Source: Hymenobacteraceae bacterium (GTDB taxonomy: Bacteria > Bacteroidota > Bacteroidia > Cytophagales > Flexibacteraceae). Taken from it: DNA of 33,616 nucleotides. Under the pieces are notes generated by a model. That model was not told the DNA's origin and did not search any database. It worked only from the letters and a program-made list of their open reading frames with translations. The translations under genes were made by a program, and so were the position numbers. Below, one piece after another: positions 2-8,069 of this stretch. Position 1 is the stretch's first letter, and every line of letters begins with the position of its first letter. The stretch is from contig CANHCT010000015.1 in the NCBI GenBank assembly GCA_947459175.1, positions 1 to 33,616 on the forward strand, read 5' to 3'.

Positions 2-457
2 CGGTCAGGGCTGTTGTTAAGCGGAGCCGCCAAAACGCTTCGGGAAGGCCACCGGGGCGAAGGTGAAGACGGCATCCTCACGGCCTACGAGGCGATGAAC
101 CTGAATCTGGACAACACGGAGTTGGTGGTACTCTCGGCCTGTGAAACGGGCTTGGGGGAAATCAAAAACGGGGAGGGCGTGTACGGCTTGCAACGGGCCT
201 TTCAGGTGGCGGGAGCCCGCAACCTGATCATGAGTTTGTGGAAAGTAGATGATGCAGTCACCAAAGACCTGATGGTGGCTTTTTTCCGGAACTGGCTGGG
301 GGCTGAGGCGGCGGTCGGTACTTCCGGTCAGACCGCCGGTCGTATGGCCAAAGGCCCCGACGACCTACGAACCGCCTTCCGCAAAGCCCAGCTGGAAATC
401 CGCAAAAAACACCCCGAGCCCTATTACTGGGGTGCATTTGTGATGCTGGGAAGGTAG
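2..457 (+). CDS. CHAT-domain protein, C-terminal part (5' truncated by window)
   Basis: The reading frame is open from base 2, so the gene begins before the window and only its last 151 residues are seen. CHAT domains are caspase-like cysteine protease folds, often fused to TPR repeats. The visible part carries the block [12 protein letters not shown], with the presumed catalytic Cys, followed by [16 protein letters not shown], a SLWKVDD stretch and a C-terminal [10 protein letters not shown]. The catalytic His lies upstream and is not in view. About 20 Gly/Ala/Thr-rich residues (near residues 100-119 of the visible part) interrupt the usual junction between the NWL helix and the LRTAFRKAQ helix. 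They are encoded by a GC-rich segment containing a 7-bp inverted repeat. The family call is secure. The substrate, any TPR portion and the cellular role cannot be judged from this fragment. Confidence 0.9.
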
Positions 458-526: not shown

Positions 527-554
527 AATCCCTTGTTCGGACGGTCAAGGGATT
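527..554 (+). other. 9-bp inverted repeat downstream of the CHAT gene
   Basis: Arms AATCCCTTG (527-535) and CAAGGGATT (546-554) are perfect complements around a 10-base loop. The repeat lies 70 bases after the CHAT stop codon. No U-run follows, so it is not a standard intrinsic terminator. It could be a factor-assisted 3' end structure or the first of the stem-loop series that continues to 1022. Confidence 0.55.
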
Positions 555-682
555 GCCAGGAAAGGTAAAATGCCTCAGACCTTCCGGTTTCCTTTTAAAT
601 TGTTTTTTCTGCAAAAACCCCGTATTGGACGAATCATGGGCCTGAGCTCGAAAAAAAATTTCCCCGGAATATTTTTTGCCCT

Positions 683-690
683 TACCTTTG
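683..690 (+). promoter_or_regulatory. Candidate Bacteroidota -7 box TACCTTTG
   Basis: TACCTTTG matches the TAnnTTTG -7 consensus of the Bacteroidota primary sigma factor. Transcription would start near 697 and leave an unusually long leader of about 360 bases before the ATG at 1059. No clear -33 TTTG is visible at the usual distance, so the call is moderate. Confidence 0.45.
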
Positions 691-772
691 TCGCACAAAG
701 CATCAGGAATCTTTCAATAGATGCCAACCGAGTCGCGAGACCACGGTGGTAAAATGATGCGGGCAGAACGCC

Positions 773-842
773 AAAAATAAAGTGCTCAAGCTCCGCTTAT
801 TTTTCTGATGTAATGGCTTAAAGTTTCACCTTTAATCATTAC
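773..842 (+). other. Two adjacent stem-loops in candidate leader/ncRNA
   Basis: The first hairpin pairs 773-780 (AAAAATAA) with 797-804 (TTATTTTT) and is extended inward by 782-784/794-796 past a bulged A. The second pairs 810-815 (GTAATG) with 837-842 (CATTAC), then 818-823 (TTAAAG) with 830-835 (CTTTAA), around the loop TTTCAC. Both are perfect apart from small internal loops. They lie within 100 bases of the predicted start of transcription. Confidence 0.55.
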
Positions 843-863
843 GAACATGCGTTTATGCATTGC

Positions 864-1022
864 TCCGGACCCGCGGGAATTCCGATTTCAGAATCCCTTT
901 ACCCGGAAAACTATTCTTCGCCGGCAGGCAGTAAGAAACAAATCTCCCTGAGATTTTTGATTCAGCCATCCGGCTGCGGGTTTAGATATCCCGGCCGGAA
1001 AACAAACGGAATGCACATTCCG
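864..1022 (+). other. Four further stem-loops before the gene at 1059
   Basis: Nested arms 864-868/903-907 and 875-882/891-897 (one bulged A) form a two-tier hairpin. Then 940-946/950-956 pairs AAATCTC with GAGATTT around CCT, 963-967/972-976 pairs CAGCC with GGCTG around ATCC, and 1007-1013/1016-1022 pairs CGGAATG with CATTCCG. The density of complementary arms is much higher than in other intergenic regions of this window. Confidence 0.55.
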
Positions 1023-1058
1023 GAAATCAATTTTCAGAAATTTTAAACTTTAACAATT

Positions 1059-1880
1059 ATGTCAGAATTGGAAAATGAAAATATGGGCTGGGTTTGTGAT
1101 GAAAATGGAAAATATACCTTCAACTGGTCTGAAGTTCCATTTCAAAAAAAAGTAAGCATTCGCTGGCGGGGATTGGAAATCCATTTGAAGCTTGAATCAT
1201 ATAAAAAATCAGGGTATTCCGACTATGGTGGTGATTTTGTTACCTATCCTACTGCGGGATTCATCCTTAATCACTTCAATAGGATTCACTGGTGGGGATA
1301 TGGCCATCCTAAAATCAAATACGGAGCTGTGGAAACAGGTCCCCACTGCAGCCCACCAAAAATCCTCTCGGGAAATTATCAGCTAAAAATTCGTACACAT
1401 CTGAATTTTGGAAGGGGACCATATATGATTTCTCTGGAAGAAGTAAAAAAGAATCCTGAAAAGGGCGATGGAGCAGCATCAACGGGAATAGAGTTCTTTG
1501 AAACGCCAGAAAGCATCAATTTGGAAATTCCAGAAACCCCATATAGAAACGATACACCTTCGATTATTGTTAATACCACCGAAATCGAACTCTACAATTT
1601 CCGGGACGCCAATACCGCAGCCGATGTGGTGGCACAGTTCCATAAAGATCGGCTGGTATTGAACACCTGGCGCCTGGGTTCAGGTGAAGATGAGTATTAC
1701 TACATCGTTCCCGGTGATGAGCTCCGCAAGTTATATGCTGAATTTAATCTGCAGGAGCATCAGAAAGCTGAGCTGCTCGTAGGTCTGCACAATGCCTTTG
1801 CCGGTAAAGACTGTATCGAAAAGTTCACAAAATATCTGGATTACAAAAAAATCACATATTCCCATCAGTTTTGCCTGTGA
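1059..1880 (+). CDS. Hypothetical protein, 273 residues, no recognised domain
   Basis: I do not recognise this protein. It starts at an ATG after an A/T-rich stretch and ends in TGA just before a strong terminator, so it is probably a monocistronic gene. There is no signal peptide or membrane segment. The N-terminal two thirds look like beta-rich, aromatic-rich soluble sequence (for example HWWGYGHPKIKYG near residues 76-88). The last 75 or so residues look more helical, with a DEYYYIVPGDELRKLYAEF stretch and a cysteine-containing end. Its first 500 bases look more A+T-rich than neighbouring genes, which may hint at transfer. It follows a CHAT gene on the same strand, but 600 bases and a possible own promoter separate the two, so a functional link is only a possibility. 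Confidence 0.75.
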   Translation: MSELENENMGWVCDENGKYTFNWSEVPFQKKVSIRWRGLEIHLKLESYKKSGYSDYGGDFVTYPTAGFILNHFNRIHWWGYGHPKIKYGAVETGPHCSPPKILSGNYQLKIRTHLNFGRGPYMISLEEVKKNPEKGDGAASTGIEFFETPESINLEIPETPYRNDTPSIIVNTTEIELYNFRDANTAADVVAQFHKDRLVLNTWRLGSGEDEYYYIVPGDELRKLYAEFNLQEHQKAELLVGLHNAFAGKDCIEKFTKYLDYKKITYSHQFCL

Positions 1881-1886
1881 GAGACC

Positions 1887-1919
1887 AAGAGGGCTGCGGA
1901 TATCCGGCAGCCCTCTTTT
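1887..1919 (+). terminator. Intrinsic terminator after the orphan gene
   Basis: An 11-bp stem pairs 1887-1897 with 1907-1917 (AAGAGGGCTGC against GCAGCCCTCTT) around a GATATCC-containing loop, and ends in a short U-run. It lies 6 bases after the stop codon of the 1059-1880 gene. The opposite orientation has no good U-run, so it mainly serves the plus strand. Confidence 0.85.
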
Positions 1920-2013: not shown

Positions 2014-2907
2014 TTACATAAAATCCTGTTTGGATAACTCCGTACGGGTTTTGAGGACCGGAATCAGGTTTTGACAACCGGCAAAATGCAGGAAACCGGC
2101 ATTGGAATAGGCGGTCACGATTGCTTTTTCCAGATAGTTTTCCTGCCATACTTTAATATTGCTTACCTTCAAATAGTTCATCAAACGGAGAAGGTAGTTT
2201 TCCGTTTTCGAAAGGGTTGCAATCCGTTGGGCTTCAGGGTAAAAAGCAGTGAGGTAGTTACTTACCAGGAAATTGTATCGGTCGTCGACCTCGTGGAAAA
2301 GGCCTGATTTCATTATTTCGTAGGAAAGGGGTCGCATTTCATAATTCCAGGCAGAAGATCCCTTGTCTTCATATTGGTAATATGCCCGTTCGAAAATTTC
2401 GTTGTGCAAATCAGGTTCCATAAGAAAAACACCGCATTGGATTACTTCGTTCAGGTCTGTTTCAATTCCGAAATTCCGGTAAAACTCATTTCCCGTGAGA
2501 TTGTGAATGTACTGAATACCTTGCTTTTCCCAGTAATTAAACATTTCTGAGAGTATAAATCGATAAAAAGGTTTATTAAAAAAAGTAAAAGCTTCGCTGC
2601 CACCTATTTTTCCCTGAGGGACTATGTCGAACAGGTTTTCAGCATTGGCATTGTTCACCACTATATCAGAATCCATCCACAACAACCGATTCAGATTTTT
2701 CGTTTCCGGGAGATTTCCAATCAGACATTTTTGCCAGGAGGAAGAACGGGCATTTGCCCTTTCGGAGGAGTCTGGTACTTGGGTAATCAATACCAGTTCA
2801 AGATTGAATCTATCGCAATATTTTTCAACAGAGGCCTTGGAATACACCTTCCACTTGTTAAGGTAATCATCGCCAATTGCCATTATCACGATGCCGTTCT
2901 TTTTCAT
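2014..2907 (-). CDS. Glycosyltransferase (GT-A fold, DxD motif)
   Basis: This 297-residue cytoplasmic protein looks like a nucleotide-sugar transferase. The N-terminus has an IVIMAIGDDYLNKWK strand-loop, and residues 77-84 read WMDSDIVV, whose DSD is a metal-binding DxD motif as in GT8/GT34-like enzymes. The following sequence (IGGSEAF, then a C-terminal region with LHFAGCQN) fits enzymes that read hexose donors. The ATG overlaps the stop codon of the upstream transferase gene as ATGA, indicating translational coupling. It is the last gene of a four-gene minus-strand operon with the Wzm/Wzt exporter, so it probably adds a sugar to the exported glycan or its carrier. Donor and acceptor cannot be read from sequence. 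Confidence 0.8.
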   Translation of the reverse strand: MKKNGIVIMAIGDDYLNKWKVYSKASVEKYCDRFNLELVLITQVPDSSERANARSSSWQKCLIGNLPETKNLNRLLWMDSDIVVNNANAENLFDIVPQGKIGGSEAFTFFNKPFYRFILSEMFNYWEKQGIQYIHNLTGNEFYRNFGIETDLNEVIQCGVFLMEPDLHNEIFERAYYQYEDKGSSAWNYEMRPLSYEIMKSGLFHEVDDRYNFLVSNYLTAFYPEAQRIATLSKTENYLLRLMNYLKVSNIKVWQENYLEKAIVTAYSNAGFLHFAGCQNLIPVLKTRTELSKQDFM

Positions 2908-3875
2908 TTTCCCAAGACAGATTTAACAATGGATTTTAGTTTGTTTTTTAAGGTCGGAGAACCCGGAGCCGAAGCTAATTGCGGTGCGGGTACTGTATCA
3001 TACACCCAGGGATATGCCATTTCAATCACTTTCCGGTCATACTCCATATCAGGAATCATCCGGGGGTTCTCCCTGAAATTCTTCGGAAAAGGGAATGACT
3101 GAAGCCGGTCGAAAGGGGTATCTCCCGTCATGTGTACTGCATCTTCCCGCCCTGTTCCGATATTGGTGATAAGGTTCCGGCTTGGCACAATGGATAAAGC
3201 ATTATTCAGAAAATGGGCAAAAGTCCATTGGTAGTCCCAGGAACTATTCAGCCCGGCAAGCAGGTGGTCCCACTCCAGTGTCCGGATTTTAAAGTACTCT
3301 TTATGGTTGATAAGATTTCCGATCAGTCGCCTTACATCCGGCTCTTTCCATTGGGGCATGGTCACATCATAATGTTTCCAAGCCCTTCTCCATGAGGCCC
3401 ACCCCCAGAAACTGCCGTAAAAGGCAAAGTGATAATCCTGAATATCCTCTTTCCAGTTATTTATCTGGTTGCATCCGGTAATGGTAAAAATCCGGTTATC
3501 GTTCCTGTATTTTTCGAGCATTTGCTGGCAATACATAAAAAAATCCGGATGCGGATAGGTGTCGTCTTCTAAAACAATACCCTCTTCTTCGTTGTCGAAC
3601 AGCCAGTGCATGGCGGTGGATTCGCCCATTTTAATCCCCAGATTCTGTTCTTCAAACCGAGTAAACAGTTGCCCCTTAAAATCCAGATTCTTGGCCATGG
3701 CCCTGACTTCCAATGTTTTTACCTGGTCATTTTCATTTCCGGGCCGTGCACCGTCGTTAAAAAAATAGATCCGGGGGGGACTCATTTCTAAGACCCGGTC
3801 CAAAATTTTCCGGGTCAGGTCGGGCCGGTTGAAGGAAATGATGAGAACGGGCAGGTTGAATTTCTGATTTTCCAT
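2904..3875 (-). CDS. GT2-like glycosyltransferase (HlpA-like)
   Basis: Starting at the ATG at 3875 the protein has 323 residues; a TTG at 3896 is the alternative but overlaps the preceding gene. The N-terminus PVLIISFNRPDLTRKIL (residues 9-25) is the usual first strand and helix of GT-A nucleotide-diphospho-sugar transferases. Residues 101-105 (VLEDD) supply the acidic metal/donor site, followed by PHPDFF. A WGWASWRRAW block is typical of the group often annotated as hemolytic protein HlpA-like in Bacteroidota. There is no signal peptide. It lies 7 bases after the Wzt-like ATPase gene and overlaps the next transferase by 4 bases, so it belongs to the export operon. The sugar specificity is unknown. 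Confidence 0.8.
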   Translation of the reverse strand: MENQKFNLPVLIISFNRPDLTRKILDRVLEMSPPRIYFFNDGARPGNENDQVKTLEVRAMAKNLDFKGQLFTRFEEQNLGIKMGESTAMHWLFDNEEEGIVLEDDTYPHPDFFMYCQQMLEKYRNDNRIFTITGCNQINNWKEDIQDYHFAFYGSFWGWASWRRAWKHYDVTMPQWKEPDVRRLIGNLINHKEYFKIRTLEWDHLLAGLNSSWDYQWTFAHFLNNALSIVPSRNLITNIGTGREDAVHMTGDTPFDRLQSFPFPKNFRENPRMIPDMEYDRKVIEMAYPWVYDTVPAPQLASAPGSPTLKNKLKSIVKSVLGK

Positions 3876-3882
3876 AAGCCCG

Positions 3883-5130
3883 TTAATTTCGCTCAATATG
3901 CCACCTTCCCAGATAATTGGTCATGTAGTGTTTGGAAAATCCGGGACTACCGGTTCCGAAAAAGTCGCCGTTCTCCACCCGCACAAATGCAGCACCTGCC
4001 AAAAGCCAATCTGCCTCTTCGTTATTTACCACGATTCGTACCCCCAATCGGTAGGTTCCGATAGTAAATGGAAAACCCGGAATCACACAACGGACTGAAA
4101 AAATTTCATGGGGTTCGGCATCGAAATAGACTTTTTGATATGAGCTGTAAAGCGTTCCCATATTTCGTTCTTCGGGGTCATAGAAATTTAGTCCCAGATC
4201 GATGTTGCGGGCTTTTTCATTGCCGCATTTCAAAGTGAAACAAAACTCAATATCCTCGCCCGTCAGGATAGTATCAATTTGATTTCCAGCCATATCACGA
4301 AGAAAAAAGTCGACCAATTGAACCGCTCCGGAGCCCGTCCGATCGGTGCGCAGAGCCAACTCAGTACTTTCTACAAATCCCCGGTTAGAAGATATGTAGG
4401 CATCGCTGATTTCCTGTACGGTTCCTGCTAGCCTGAGCTGTCCGGATTCCAGAAATAGTCCGTAATTACAAAGAGCCTTTACTGATGCGATGTTGTGGCT
4501 TACAAAAAGTACCGTACGACCTTCGTTGCCGGTTACTTGTTTCATTTTGTCCACACATTTTTTCTGAAATTCCACATCACCAACCGCCAGAACCTCATCG
4601 ATAATCATGATCTCTGTTTCAAGGTGAGCCGCTACCGCAAAGGCAAGTCGTACATACATCCCGGAACTGTATCGCTTAACGGGAGTGTCAAGAAAACGTG
4701 AAACCCCCGAAAACTCTACAATTTCATCGAATTTCGAACGAATATCAGTCTTGGTCATTCCCATTATGGCCCCGTTGAGAAATACATTTTCCCTGCCGGT
4801 AAGTTCGGGGTGAAAACCGGTTCCCACCTCCAGGAGAGAGGAAATTTTTCCAAGAATTTTGATAGACCCCGTTGTGGGGGCTGTGGTTCGGGAAAGCAAC
4901 TTCAGCAAGGTCGATTTGCCGGCCCCGTTTTTGCCCACAACACCTACTGCACTTCCCCGTTCAATTTCAAAATTTATATTCCGTAGAGCCCAATGAGTAT
5001 TCTCCTTATGCTTAACCGATTTTTGTCCTGAAAACCAATTTATTATATCTTCCTTTAAAGATTGGGTTCCCAGTGTTCCCAAACGGTAGGATTTGCCCAG
5101 ATTCTCAACTTTTATCGCTATTTGACTCAT
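3883..5130 (-). CDS. wzt: Wzt-type ABC transporter ATPase with C-terminal cargo domain
   Basis: This is the nucleotide-binding subunit of a polysaccharide ABC exporter. Residues 66-74 form Walker A (GKNGAGKST), 154-158 the signature YSSGM, 174-179 Walker B (IMIIDE) and His212 the switch histidine. At 415 residues it is longer than a bare TagH/Wzt ATPase. The extra C-terminal part (about residues 260-415) is beta-rich and matches the layout of the Wzt C-terminal domain, which in known systems recognises the modified end of the glycan before export. It lies 5 bases after the permease gene and upstream of two glycosyltransferases. The symbol denotes family membership; the exported polymer is unknown. 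Confidence 0.92.
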   Translation of the reverse strand: MSQIAIKVENLGKSYRLGTLGTQSLKEDIINWFSGQKSVKHKENTHWALRNINFEIERGSAVGVVGKNGAGKSTLLKLLSRTTAPTTGSIKILGKISSLLEVGTGFHPELTGRENVFLNGAIMGMTKTDIRSKFDEIVEFSGVSRFLDTPVKRYSSGMYVRLAFAVAAHLETEIMIIDEVLAVGDVEFQKKCVDKMKQVTGNEGRTVLFVSHNIASVKALCNYGLFLESGQLRLAGTVQEISDAYISSNRGFVESTELALRTDRTGSGAVQLVDFFLRDMAGNQIDTILTGEDIEFCFTLKCGNEKARNIDLGLNFYDPEERNMGTLYSSYQKVYFDAEPHEIFSVRCVIPGFPFTIGTYRLGVRIVVNNEEADWLLAGAAFVRVENGDFFGTGSPGFSKHYMTNYLGRWHIERN

Positions 5131-5135
5131 CGTTG

Positions 5136-5984
5136 CTATATCGTGTCAATGGAGGTTCTTTCAGCCTTGTTGAAAACAACAAGACCAAGAAGAAATACAA
5201 AAATTCCAGCTATAAAACTGATTACCAGCCTTGTCACCAGAAACTGGCCTACCCCCAGAAAAGAATACCGGAAGGCTTCAAAAACGGGGGAAAGCGGATT
5301 GATCAGACTTACCCATTTGAACTTTTCGGGGACTATGGATGCCGGATAAATAATCGGAGTTGCATACATCAGCAATTGGCTGCCAAAAGCCAGCAAATGC
5401 GAAAGGTCTTTATACCGGGTGGTAAATGCAGAAATAATCAAGCCGACTCCAAGTGAATACAGGCTCACAATCAGAAGAATAACCGGACTTAAAAGCAGAT
5501 GCCAACCCGGTGTAATGGTTGTGCCTGATATTTTATAGAACAATAAAATGACAATAAAAAGGCCCAGCTGAATTCCAAAATTAACCAAACTGGCAAGTAG
5601 TCCCGATACAGGGAGAATCAACCGGGGAAAGTATACTTTTCCGAAAATGTGAGAATTGGCATTGAAGGTGCCAGAACTTTTCATAAAGGCAGAATTAAAA
5701 AAATTCCACAACACAATGCCGGGCATGTAAAACAGAAGTTGCGGAAGGCCGTCAGTAGGAATGCGGGCTACCACACCGAAAATGATAGAATAAACAAAAG
5801 TGGTAAGCAGGGGCTGCAGTACAAACCATAGGGGACCCAATATGGTTTGCTTGTAGGTGGGTACCAGTTCTCTTTTCACAAAAAGGAGAATCAGATCACG
5901 ATATTTCCAGAACTCCCCGAGCTTAAGGTCAAGCAATGATGCCTTAGGCAGAATTTCAATTGACCAGTTGTCTTTTTTTTCCAA
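5136..5984 (-). CDS. wzm: Wzm-type polysaccharide ABC transporter permease
   Basis: This 282-residue inner-membrane protein shows about six membrane segments and the ABC-2/Wzm hallmark near the N-terminus, YKQTILGPLWFVLQPLLTT. Further features are the IIFGVVARI segment, an internal amphipathic region before YFPRLILPVSG, and the PLSPVFEAFRYSFLG stretch before the last membrane helix. The start is a TTG, with no in-frame ATG nearby; the next residues (DNWSIEILPKASLLDLKLGE) align with the usual Wzm N-terminus, which supports it. It pairs with the ATPase immediately downstream to move lipid-linked glycan across the inner membrane. Confidence 0.92.
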   Translation of the reverse strand: MEKKDNWSIEILPKASLLDLKLGEFWKYRDLILLFVKRELVPTYKQTILGPLWFVLQPLLTTFVYSIIFGVVARIPTDGLPQLLFYMPGIVLWNFFNSAFMKSSGTFNANSHIFGKVYFPRLILPVSGLLASLVNFGIQLGLFIVILLFYKISGTTITPGWHLLLSPVILLIVSLYSLGVGLIISAFTTRYKDLSHLLAFGSQLLMYATPIIYPASIVPEKFKWVSLINPLSPVFEAFRYSFLGVGQFLVTRLVISFIAGIFVFLLGLVVFNKAERTSIDTI

Positions 5985-6091
5985 ATTGTTTTGGCTGTCA
6001 GCGTTTGGTTTTTTCCGAAAAAAAATTCCGGATTTTAGTCTGCAATAATAGAGGTAAAATTACTTTCCCGTAACAGAAATCGACGGACCTG

Positions 6092-6129
6092 GGTTTGCCA
6101 AACCGTATTTCCCCTTTCAGGAAATACGG
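6092..6129. other. Two overlapping inverted repeats between divergent genes
   Basis: GGTTT (6092-6096) pairs with AAACC (6100-6104). A perfect 10-bp stem pairs 6103-6112 (CCGTATTTCC) with 6120-6129 (GGAAATACGG) around a 7-base loop. The two share bases 6103-6104, so as RNA they exclude each other. The site lies between the minus-strand exporter operon and rpe. It could be an operator for either direction or a leader structure. No U-run follows on either strand. Confidence 0.5.
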
Positions 6130-6190
6130 GTAAAATTTGATTTTGAGCCCAAATTTTGTCTGGTTTGTCTTTCGAAATTTTTTCCATCCG

Positions 6191-6844
6191 ATGATTAAAC
6201 TGGCACCATCCATACTTTCTGCCGACTTCGGAAAGCTCCGCGAAACCGTGGAAATCCTTAATGAAAGTCCTGCCGATGTTTTGCATGTGGATGTGATGGA
6301 TGGGCGTTTTGTACCCAACATTTCCTTTGGATTTCCTGTGCTGGAGGTTCTGGCCAGGCACAGCAAAAAGCCTCTCGATGTCCATCTGATGATAGAAGAG
6401 CCGGAAAAATTTGCTGAGCGGTTCATAAAATCGGGCGCTTCCTGGCTTTCATTCCATTTGGAAGCATGCGCCCACACACACCGGCTTTTAGAGGCCGTTC
6501 AAGGTTGGGGTGCCCGGCCGGGCCTGGCCATCAATCCTCAGACCGGATTAGATGGTATGGAATATCTGGTTGATTGTTTGGGATTTGTCAATGTGATGAC
6601 CGTAAATCCGGGATTTGGGGGACAGAAATTTATTCAAGCCATGTTCCATAAAATCAAGGCTCTGGATGAATTACGCAAGAAAACCGGTTCTCATTTTGAA
6701 ATAGAGATCGACGGTGGTGTGAACATGGGAAATGCAGTGGCCCTGAAAGAAGCCGGTGCTGATATCCTGGTGGCAGGCAATGCCCTCTTTTCTGAACCTC
6801 AGCTCTCTGAAGGTGTATTGAAATTCAAGCATTTGCTGGTGTAA
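6191..6844 (+). CDS. rpe: Ribulose-phosphate 3-epimerase
   Basis: The enzyme interconverts ribulose 5-phosphate and xylulose 5-phosphate in the pentose phosphate pathway. From the ATG at 6191 the protein has 217 residues, the normal family length, and begins MIKLAPSILSADFGKL as expected; an in-frame ATG at 6137 would add 18 unrelated residues. The metal ligands and catalytic acids are all present: His32 and Asp34 in HVDVMDG, His65 in DVHLM, and Asp174 in EIDGGVN. The phosphate-binding VNPGFGGQ loop is near residues 138-145. It is followed after one base by a GT9 gene that starts at GTG, suggesting one transcript. Confidence 0.97.
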   Translation: MIKLAPSILSADFGKLRETVEILNESPADVLHVDVMDGRFVPNISFGFPVLEVLARHSKKPLDVHLMIEEPEKFAERFIKSGASWLSFHLEACAHTHRLLEAVQGWGARPGLAINPQTGLDGMEYLVDCLGFVNVMTVNPGFGGQKFIQAMFHKIKALDELRKKTGSHFEIEIDGGVNMGNAVALKEAGADILVAGNALFSEPQLSEGVLKFKHLLV

Positions 6845-6845
6845 A

Positions 6846-8069
6846 GTGAACAAGAGACCGACCGATTTTATTTCCCGGTTTTTTATTCGTTTTCCCTGGA
6901 TTTCCTGGTTTTTTCTGGATAATTTTCTTTTCAGGAATAACATTTTCAAAAAGTTAATTCTTTTCCGCCCGGAATTTTTCAGGGCTTATTTCTGTTGGAA
7001 ACCCGCTTGGTTTCCCCGAAAAGCCATATTAATTATAAAGACCGATGCCATAGGCGATTACATGCTCTTTCGCCATACGCTTAAGGCCATCTGCAGCAGC
7101 AAAAAATACAGGGGATACCAAATCTATTTTTTGGGCAACGAGATTTGGGCCGATCTGAGCAACGACCTGGATGGAGAATTTGTAAACGGATATTTTTGGT
7201 TGAACAGGCAGGCCTGCAAAAATCCGGCAGACCCCTTTTACAGGCAGCAACTTGTTTTCCAAATCAACCAAATGGTTTTTGAAAAGCTGATTTATTTTTC
7301 CTTTTCCCGTGAAAACCTGGTAGGCGATTGGCTTGCCGGACACATCACAGCCAAAGAAAAAATCAGCACTGAGGGCGATCTGCTCTGTCAGACAGCAGAG
7401 GAAAGACAATGTGGAAATGTTTGCTACTCATCTCTTTTTCCTCTCCCAAATCAGGTATATTTTGAATTGGAGAAAAACAGGCTGTTTGTGGAATGGCTTC
7501 TTGATGAGAAAATAGCCGGAGATTTTATTTCAGTTCCGAAAACGGGCTCTTTGACAAACAAAATCGTCTTTTTCCCTGGTGCCAGTGCTGCGTTTCGTCA
7601 GTGGCCGGTAGATTCCTTTGTTTCCCTTGGCCGGATTATCCTCGAAAAAACGGATTTCAGTATTCTGATTGCAGGCGGAAGCGAAGACAGAAATAAAGCC
7701 GGGCAAATTCTCGAATCACTTGGAGATGAACGGGTTGCCTCCATTTGCGGAACGGCCTCCTTATCAGAATTTTTTCATTTGCTTGGTGATGCGAGTCTTT
7801 TGATTTCCAACGAAACCAGCGGGGTTCATATGGCGGTGGCGCTGGGTATCCCCACCCTTTGTATCAGCAACGGAAACCATTACGGACGCTTCAATCCCTA
7901 CGAGCAGCATGGGTTTGCGTTTGTCAAAACGATGTATCCGAATCAGGTTCAGCAAAAAACCGAAGCCGAAAGGCTGAAATTATGGAAAGATGGCTCCGTT
8001 TTGCCCATTTCCGAAATCGGGGTTTCGGAGGTTTGGGTTGAGGTTGAAAGATTGCTGCCGAAGGACTAA
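6846..8069 (+). CDS. Glycosyltransferase family 9 (heptosyltransferase-like)
   Basis: This 407-residue protein has the two-domain GT-B layout of ADP-heptose:LPS heptosyltransferases. The first Rossmann strand ILIIKTDAIGD is at residues 61-71. The C-terminal domain has a KIVFFPGASAAFRQWP block (about 239-254), FSILIAGGSEDR and the donor-site stretch ISNETSGVHMAVALGIP. About 55 extra, hydrophobic, basic N-terminal residues precede the first strand. The start is GTG, one base after the rpe stop codon, so translation is probably coupled. It likely adds a sugar to lipopolysaccharide core or another envelope glycan. The donor need not be heptose in Bacteroidota. Confidence 0.88.
   Translation: MNKRPTDFISRFFIRFPWISWFFLDNFLFRNNIFKKLILFRPEFFRAYFCWKPAWFPRKAILIIKTDAIGDYMLFRHTLKAICSSKKYRGYQIYFLGNEIWADLSNDLDGEFVNGYFWLNRQACKNPADPFYRQQLVFQINQMVFEKLIYFSFSRENLVGDWLAGHITAKEKISTEGDLLCQTAEERQCGNVCYSSLFPLPNQVYFELEKNRLFVEWLLDEKIAGDFISVPKTGSLTNKIVFFPGASAAFRQWPVDSFVSLGRIILEKTDFSILIAGGSEDRNKAGQILESLGDERVASICGTASLSEFFHLLGDASLLISNETSGVHMAVALGIPTLCISNGNHYGRFNPYEQHGFAFVKTMYPNQVQQKTEAERLKLWKDGSVLPISEIGVSEVWVEVERLLPKD

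Follow-up and report, generated by a model that had tools for sequence, protein, structure and literature searches.

The leader of the orphan gene P0001 carries a riboswitch aptamer of the SAM-I/IV class which, in the reading we favour with some reserve, would be a translational OFF switch on a short ORF, the orphan gene being the second cistron. As read from the DNA, this is backed by the family match, a conserved promoter, a covarying anti-P1 helix, a conserved hairpin, the distance to the start codon and the linkage of the genes. The features are collected in Table 1; the window is the whole stretch of DNA that was analysed (33,616 nucleotides).

Table 1. Features of the riboswitch locus, in window positions
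Feature	Position	Strand	Remark
-7 promoter box TACCTTTG (Bacteroidota TAnnTTTG)	683..690	+	Conserved in 5 genus loci
SAM-I/IV riboswitch aptamer	695..789	+	Rfam RF01725; P1 = 700-704 with 756-760
P1 5' strand and J1/2, segment able to pair with anti-P1	700..709	+	
Anti-P1 strand TTTCTGATGT	802..811	+	10 pairs with 700-709
Hairpin before start codon, GTAATG..TTAAAG / CTTTAA.CATTAC	810..842	+	Conserved in genus
Short ORF, 34 codons, MRLCIAP...NKSP, probable direct target	847..951	+	Open in four loci
Structured spacer, short ORF to orphan gene	952..1058	+	z = -3.4
Orphan gene (P0001), 273 aa, probable second cistron	1059..1880	+	Riboswitch-linked in 4/5 genus genomes
Terminator-like hairpin GAGGGCTGC/GCAGCCCTC, then TTTT	1889..1919	+	Read directly from sequence

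The aptamer matches RF01725 with 58.6 bits (E = 2.3e-7, curated cutoff 41.1), and the match is full length (model positions 1-99). In the cmscan alignment, the pairing of P1-P3 and P5 is present together with the conserved core CCAACC ... GGUGG, and the core is unvaried across the five loci of the genus. It is a single aptamer in a 5' leader position and the only RF01725 copy in the genome. The RNA at 695-789 thus shows what the definition of SAM-I/IV ('SAM-I-IV-variant' in PMC2864571) allows to be tested, with SAM as the putative ligand. The earlier note had supposed an unreported RNA class; the structured RNA is genuine but belongs to a known one, which the covariance-model search with Rfam recovered. 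Its author had been unable to match tmRNA, RNase P RNA or SRP RNA by eye, and these are ruled out: SAM-I-IV is the only Rfam family found in the whole window, it alone matched when 450-1100 was searched down to E ≤ 5, and ARAGORN finds none. The genome also has an RF00162 SAM riboswitch (L049, contig C11:40548-40656, at the contig end). The ORF behind it starts MIEKILQERILILDGAMGTMIQRYDL and, read by eye, is presumably metH-like.

The promoter box suggested in the earlier note holds up. The motif TAnnTTTG occurs only once in the first 2000 bases, at this position, and is kept in the congeners. Of the 38 SAM-I/IV loci read in the order, 18 have such a box right at the aptamer; in 30-nt background windows the rate is 1.8%. 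In F. johnsoniae promoters, the G of the -7 box is at -5 (PMC6847099). Applied to this box, that spacing predicts transcription to start at 695, the first base of the aptamer and five bases 5' of P1.

A run of stem-loops had been described over 527-1022. The inverted repeats are present (18 arm pairs within 458-1058), and 690-1058 folds better than dinucleotide shuffles, at -105.6 kcal/mol versus -86.0 ± 4.7 (z = -4.2), none of 100 shuffles being as stable. The parts of the run that stand are the aptamer with its platform (695-846, z = -2.9) and the spacer at 952-1058; the short-ORF stretch 847-951 (z = -0.2) and the upstream part 527-690 (z = -0.4) are shuffle-like and drop out. In G002, the nearest relative, the 9-bp hairpin of 527-554 is disrupted, and it is therefore not counted as part of the element; with their shuffle-level energy, the stem-loops of 527-690 were ruled out as a whole. 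When the window was tiled (110 tiles of 152 nt), z was -3 or lower in only one tile, and the tile from 901 came second. In the spacer, a small hairpin (1007-1022) seems retained in G002 and, with different bases, in G001.

Relatives were searched for in 59 related genomes, including four congeners. Aptamer and P0001 homologue occur together in three of the four congeners, with search identities of 94, 50 and 38% for the protein; the fourth lacks both. Riboswitch, short ORF and orphan gene are kept in the same order in all three, although the orphan proteins of two are 33-50% identical, and in all four loci 267-275 nt separate the aptamer from the start of the homologue. A scan of GTDB species genomes returned the same three relatives only. 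All three are metagenome-assembled genomes, and their labels read Cytophagaceae bacterium or Spirosoma fluviale; the orphan gene is known from only a few freshwater bacteria. G001 has two aptamers; the second carries the same platform, which here sits immediately in front of the ATG of a 481-codon ORF that is unrelated. This ORF (L013, contig C159) has repeated internal segments, and its first 250 residues have no Pfam match. Over the order, metK-like genes (recognised by eye) follow the aptamer at 7 of 38 loci. Often the first ORF after the aptamer encodes an unannotated protein of 70-110 residues (L005, L027, L029, L035, L036; L014, L021, L024, L026, L038). These proteins include at least two recurrent families, PFDL..ECY.IL... 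and L..DELI..FN.EVGN..., and a Pfam scan of two representatives gave nothing above the family cutoff.

The candidate expression platform has counterparts in most SAM-I/IV loci of the order. All 38 loci were read and 36 tested for an anti-P1 strand; 27 of the 36 have a leader strand complementary to the P1 5' strand and J1/2 (p ≤ 0.05 versus base-shuffled leaders). Although the SAM-bound aptamer leaves the J1/2 bases unpaired, these bases covary over the order with the anti-P1 strand. One J1/2 base has 31 A-T, 2 C-G and 1 T-A pairs, the next 27 A-T, 4 G-C and 2 C-G pairs with 1 mismatch. As the anti-P1 segment is selected for pairing, a swap control was run: the loci's own platforms total 630, compared with 557 ± 10 for platforms taken from other loci (0/5000). 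Within the genus, the P1 and anti-P1 helices both hold, with one compensatory pair each, modest evidence from five sequences only. Many loci of the order have a start-abutting hairpin just 3' of anti-P1. Folding was modelled with either P1 or anti-P1 forced, by energies that leave out tertiary contacts and the ligand. In 15 of 16 loci, not all of them independent, forcing anti-P1 makes the start region more accessible. Accessibility rises from bound to free in G002 (0.20 to 0.31), G001 (0.21 to 0.53) and G003 (0.64 to 0.80), the anti-P1 helix of G003 carrying a mismatch. The window's own copy is the sole exception (0.36 bound, 0.34 free).

Four bases lie between the end of the platform hairpin and ATG 847. 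Since the platform abuts this codon, the switch would act on the short ORF, which by position is probably the direct target rather than the orphan gene. The distance from anti-P1 to the start is 35 nt here, in G002 and in G001, and 38 nt in G003, where the start codon is TTG; it is mostly 23-37 nt in hairpin-platform loci before evident ORFs. ATG 847 has A at -3 and -6; in Bacteroidetes, an A at -3 acts as a positive determinant (PMC6847099). The ORF is open at all four orphan-gene loci with a joint chance of about 0.006, a figure that overstates the evidence, given the closeness of G000 to G002 and a start chosen with the hairpin already in view. The four C-termini before the stop are NKSP, NKSP, NNSP and SKPP. 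The middle is unconserved: even G000 and G002, at 94% identity in the orphan protein, do not share it, and coding is for this reason rated as likely but unproven. A longer ORF in another frame (854-1045) was rejected; its KQISL-like stretch also occurs in G002 and G003, but stops interrupt it in G002 and G001.

The orphan gene starts 107 nt after the short ORF and has its own A/T-rich start region. The absence of a TAnnTTTG box between the two suggests that they are co-transcribed. P0001 has no convincing relative in Pfam, NCBIfam or the PDB, and the mean pLDDT of its AlphaFold model is 36. It is not a known methionine gene. The last ~105 residues resemble ~110-residue proteins of other Bacteroidota (E 1e-5 to 1e-7). 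Stand-alone proteins of this kind are found at L046, L047 and L048, and those at L046 and L047 adjoin a predicted lipoprotein. The 9-base loop and 4 T of the terminator-like hairpin behind the gene lie outside the limits of our terminator scan. A CHAT-domain protein (window 2-457) ends just upstream of the locus, and downstream, at window 2014-8069, lies a convergent polysaccharide cluster that includes glycosyltransferases and an ABC exporter carrying a Wzt C-terminal domain.

In the proposed mechanism, transcription would begin at about 695. When SAM is absent, anti-P1 would pair with the P1 5' strand and J1/2, loosening the base of the hairpin before ATG 847 and allowing ribosomes to start the 34-codon ORF. 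With SAM, P1 would close, the hairpin base would form and the start at 847 would be blocked. The orphan gene would follow, since translating the short ORF would relieve polarity or support coupled initiation. SAM as ligand, the direction of switching, translation of the short ORF and the effect on the orphan gene are what we infer. A cis-regulator of the orphan gene had been suggested earlier; a regulatory leader it is, probably acting on the short ORF first and not on the gene directly. More tentatively, a SAM-family switch may govern a genus-specific small protein and P0001 through uORF coupling, in a function other than methionine metabolism and possibly with an altered ligand.

Some observations stand against the OFF switch, namely the equal accessibility of the window's own copy in both states, the mismatch and TTG start of G003, the lack of conservation in the middle of the short ORF, and the fact that the orphan gene is not a known methionine gene. 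Others argue for it: the Rfam match, the frequency of anti-P1 strands in the order, the hairpins that abut start codons, the compensatory changes at J1/2, the swap control, the accessibility trend, the second copy of G001 before its long ORF, and an element order kept in three congeners despite diverged proteins, with both riboswitch and gene absent in the fourth. It is rather doubtful that the same riboswitch leaves the short ORF untranslated and controls the orphan gene directly through its long leader, by transcription (Rho-dependent termination, for example) or long-range folding. Conservation at the protein level does sit in the orphan gene and not in the middle of the short ORF, and the spacer is strongly folded; however, the hairpin is placed before ATG 847 as it is before real starts elsewhere in the order. 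A scan of the + strand found no intrinsic terminator between aptamer and gene, which also speaks against direct control and rules out a platform of the intrinsic-terminator type.

A changed ligand in this genus, bound by an aptamer derived from SAM-I/IV, is improbable. The J1/2 base after the A, usually A, is G in the four orphan-gene loci, the targets are not methionine genes, and spermidine switches arose from SAM-I by changes in J1/2 and P3 (PMC10853860). The following J1/2 base, however, is an invariant G in all aligned loci, the P3 core is intact and metK-like genes follow the aptamer at related loci; as for A to G, anti-P1 carries the matching U to C, so that the alternative helix accounts for the change. 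That the riboswitch at this locus is a functionless relic would agree with energy models in which its own copy does not switch, but aptamer, platform and promoter are conserved across congeners whose proteins have strongly diverged, and we regard this as very improbable.

The OFF-switch reading assigns a ligand family to a leader that had lacked an explanation. The family of the orphan protein, together with several small, unannotated proteins of the order, would probably belong to SAM regulons. From the covariation comes a testable model for SAM-I/IV control of translation in bacteria without Shine-Dalgarno sequences. Compared with SAM-I/IV (RF01725) elsewhere, the order of the elements is the same as at loci before metK-like genes, but a short ORF and an orphan gene lie downstream instead of a methionine or SAM gene, and a G occupies the usually-A J1/2 base. 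The orphan target and the probable uORF set this locus apart from a routine riboswitch hit.

The spermidine riboswitch, a SAM-I variant, likewise has a SAM-family fold, a J1/2 change and genes not evidently of methionine metabolism, but it precedes polyamine genes and occurs in Gram-positive bacteria (PMC10853860). That class was ruled out because its J1/2 and its P3 internal loop are both changed, whereas the P3 core here is as in other loci and one J1/2 base alone has changed. Among known switches, the ppe2 B12 riboswitch of Mycobacterium tuberculosis comes nearest to the proposed mode of action and is a precedent for riboswitch control of a uORF (PMC11260477). In it, as proposed here, the start of a short ORF is masked in the ligand form, the anti-anti-start strand lies within the aptamer and a main gene of uncertain function follows. 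The aptamer and ligand are different, the ppe2 uORF overlaps the gene start (AUGA) where ours is separated from it, and the ppe2 switch has been tested experimentally while the present one is known from sequence. Judged as a ppe2-type switch, the short ORF fits by the position of its start behind the hairpin, but the modelled accessibility of the window's own copy is unchanged. If the reading is true, ppe2 would have a counterpart in another phylum, with a riboswitch acting on a short ORF that precedes the main gene.
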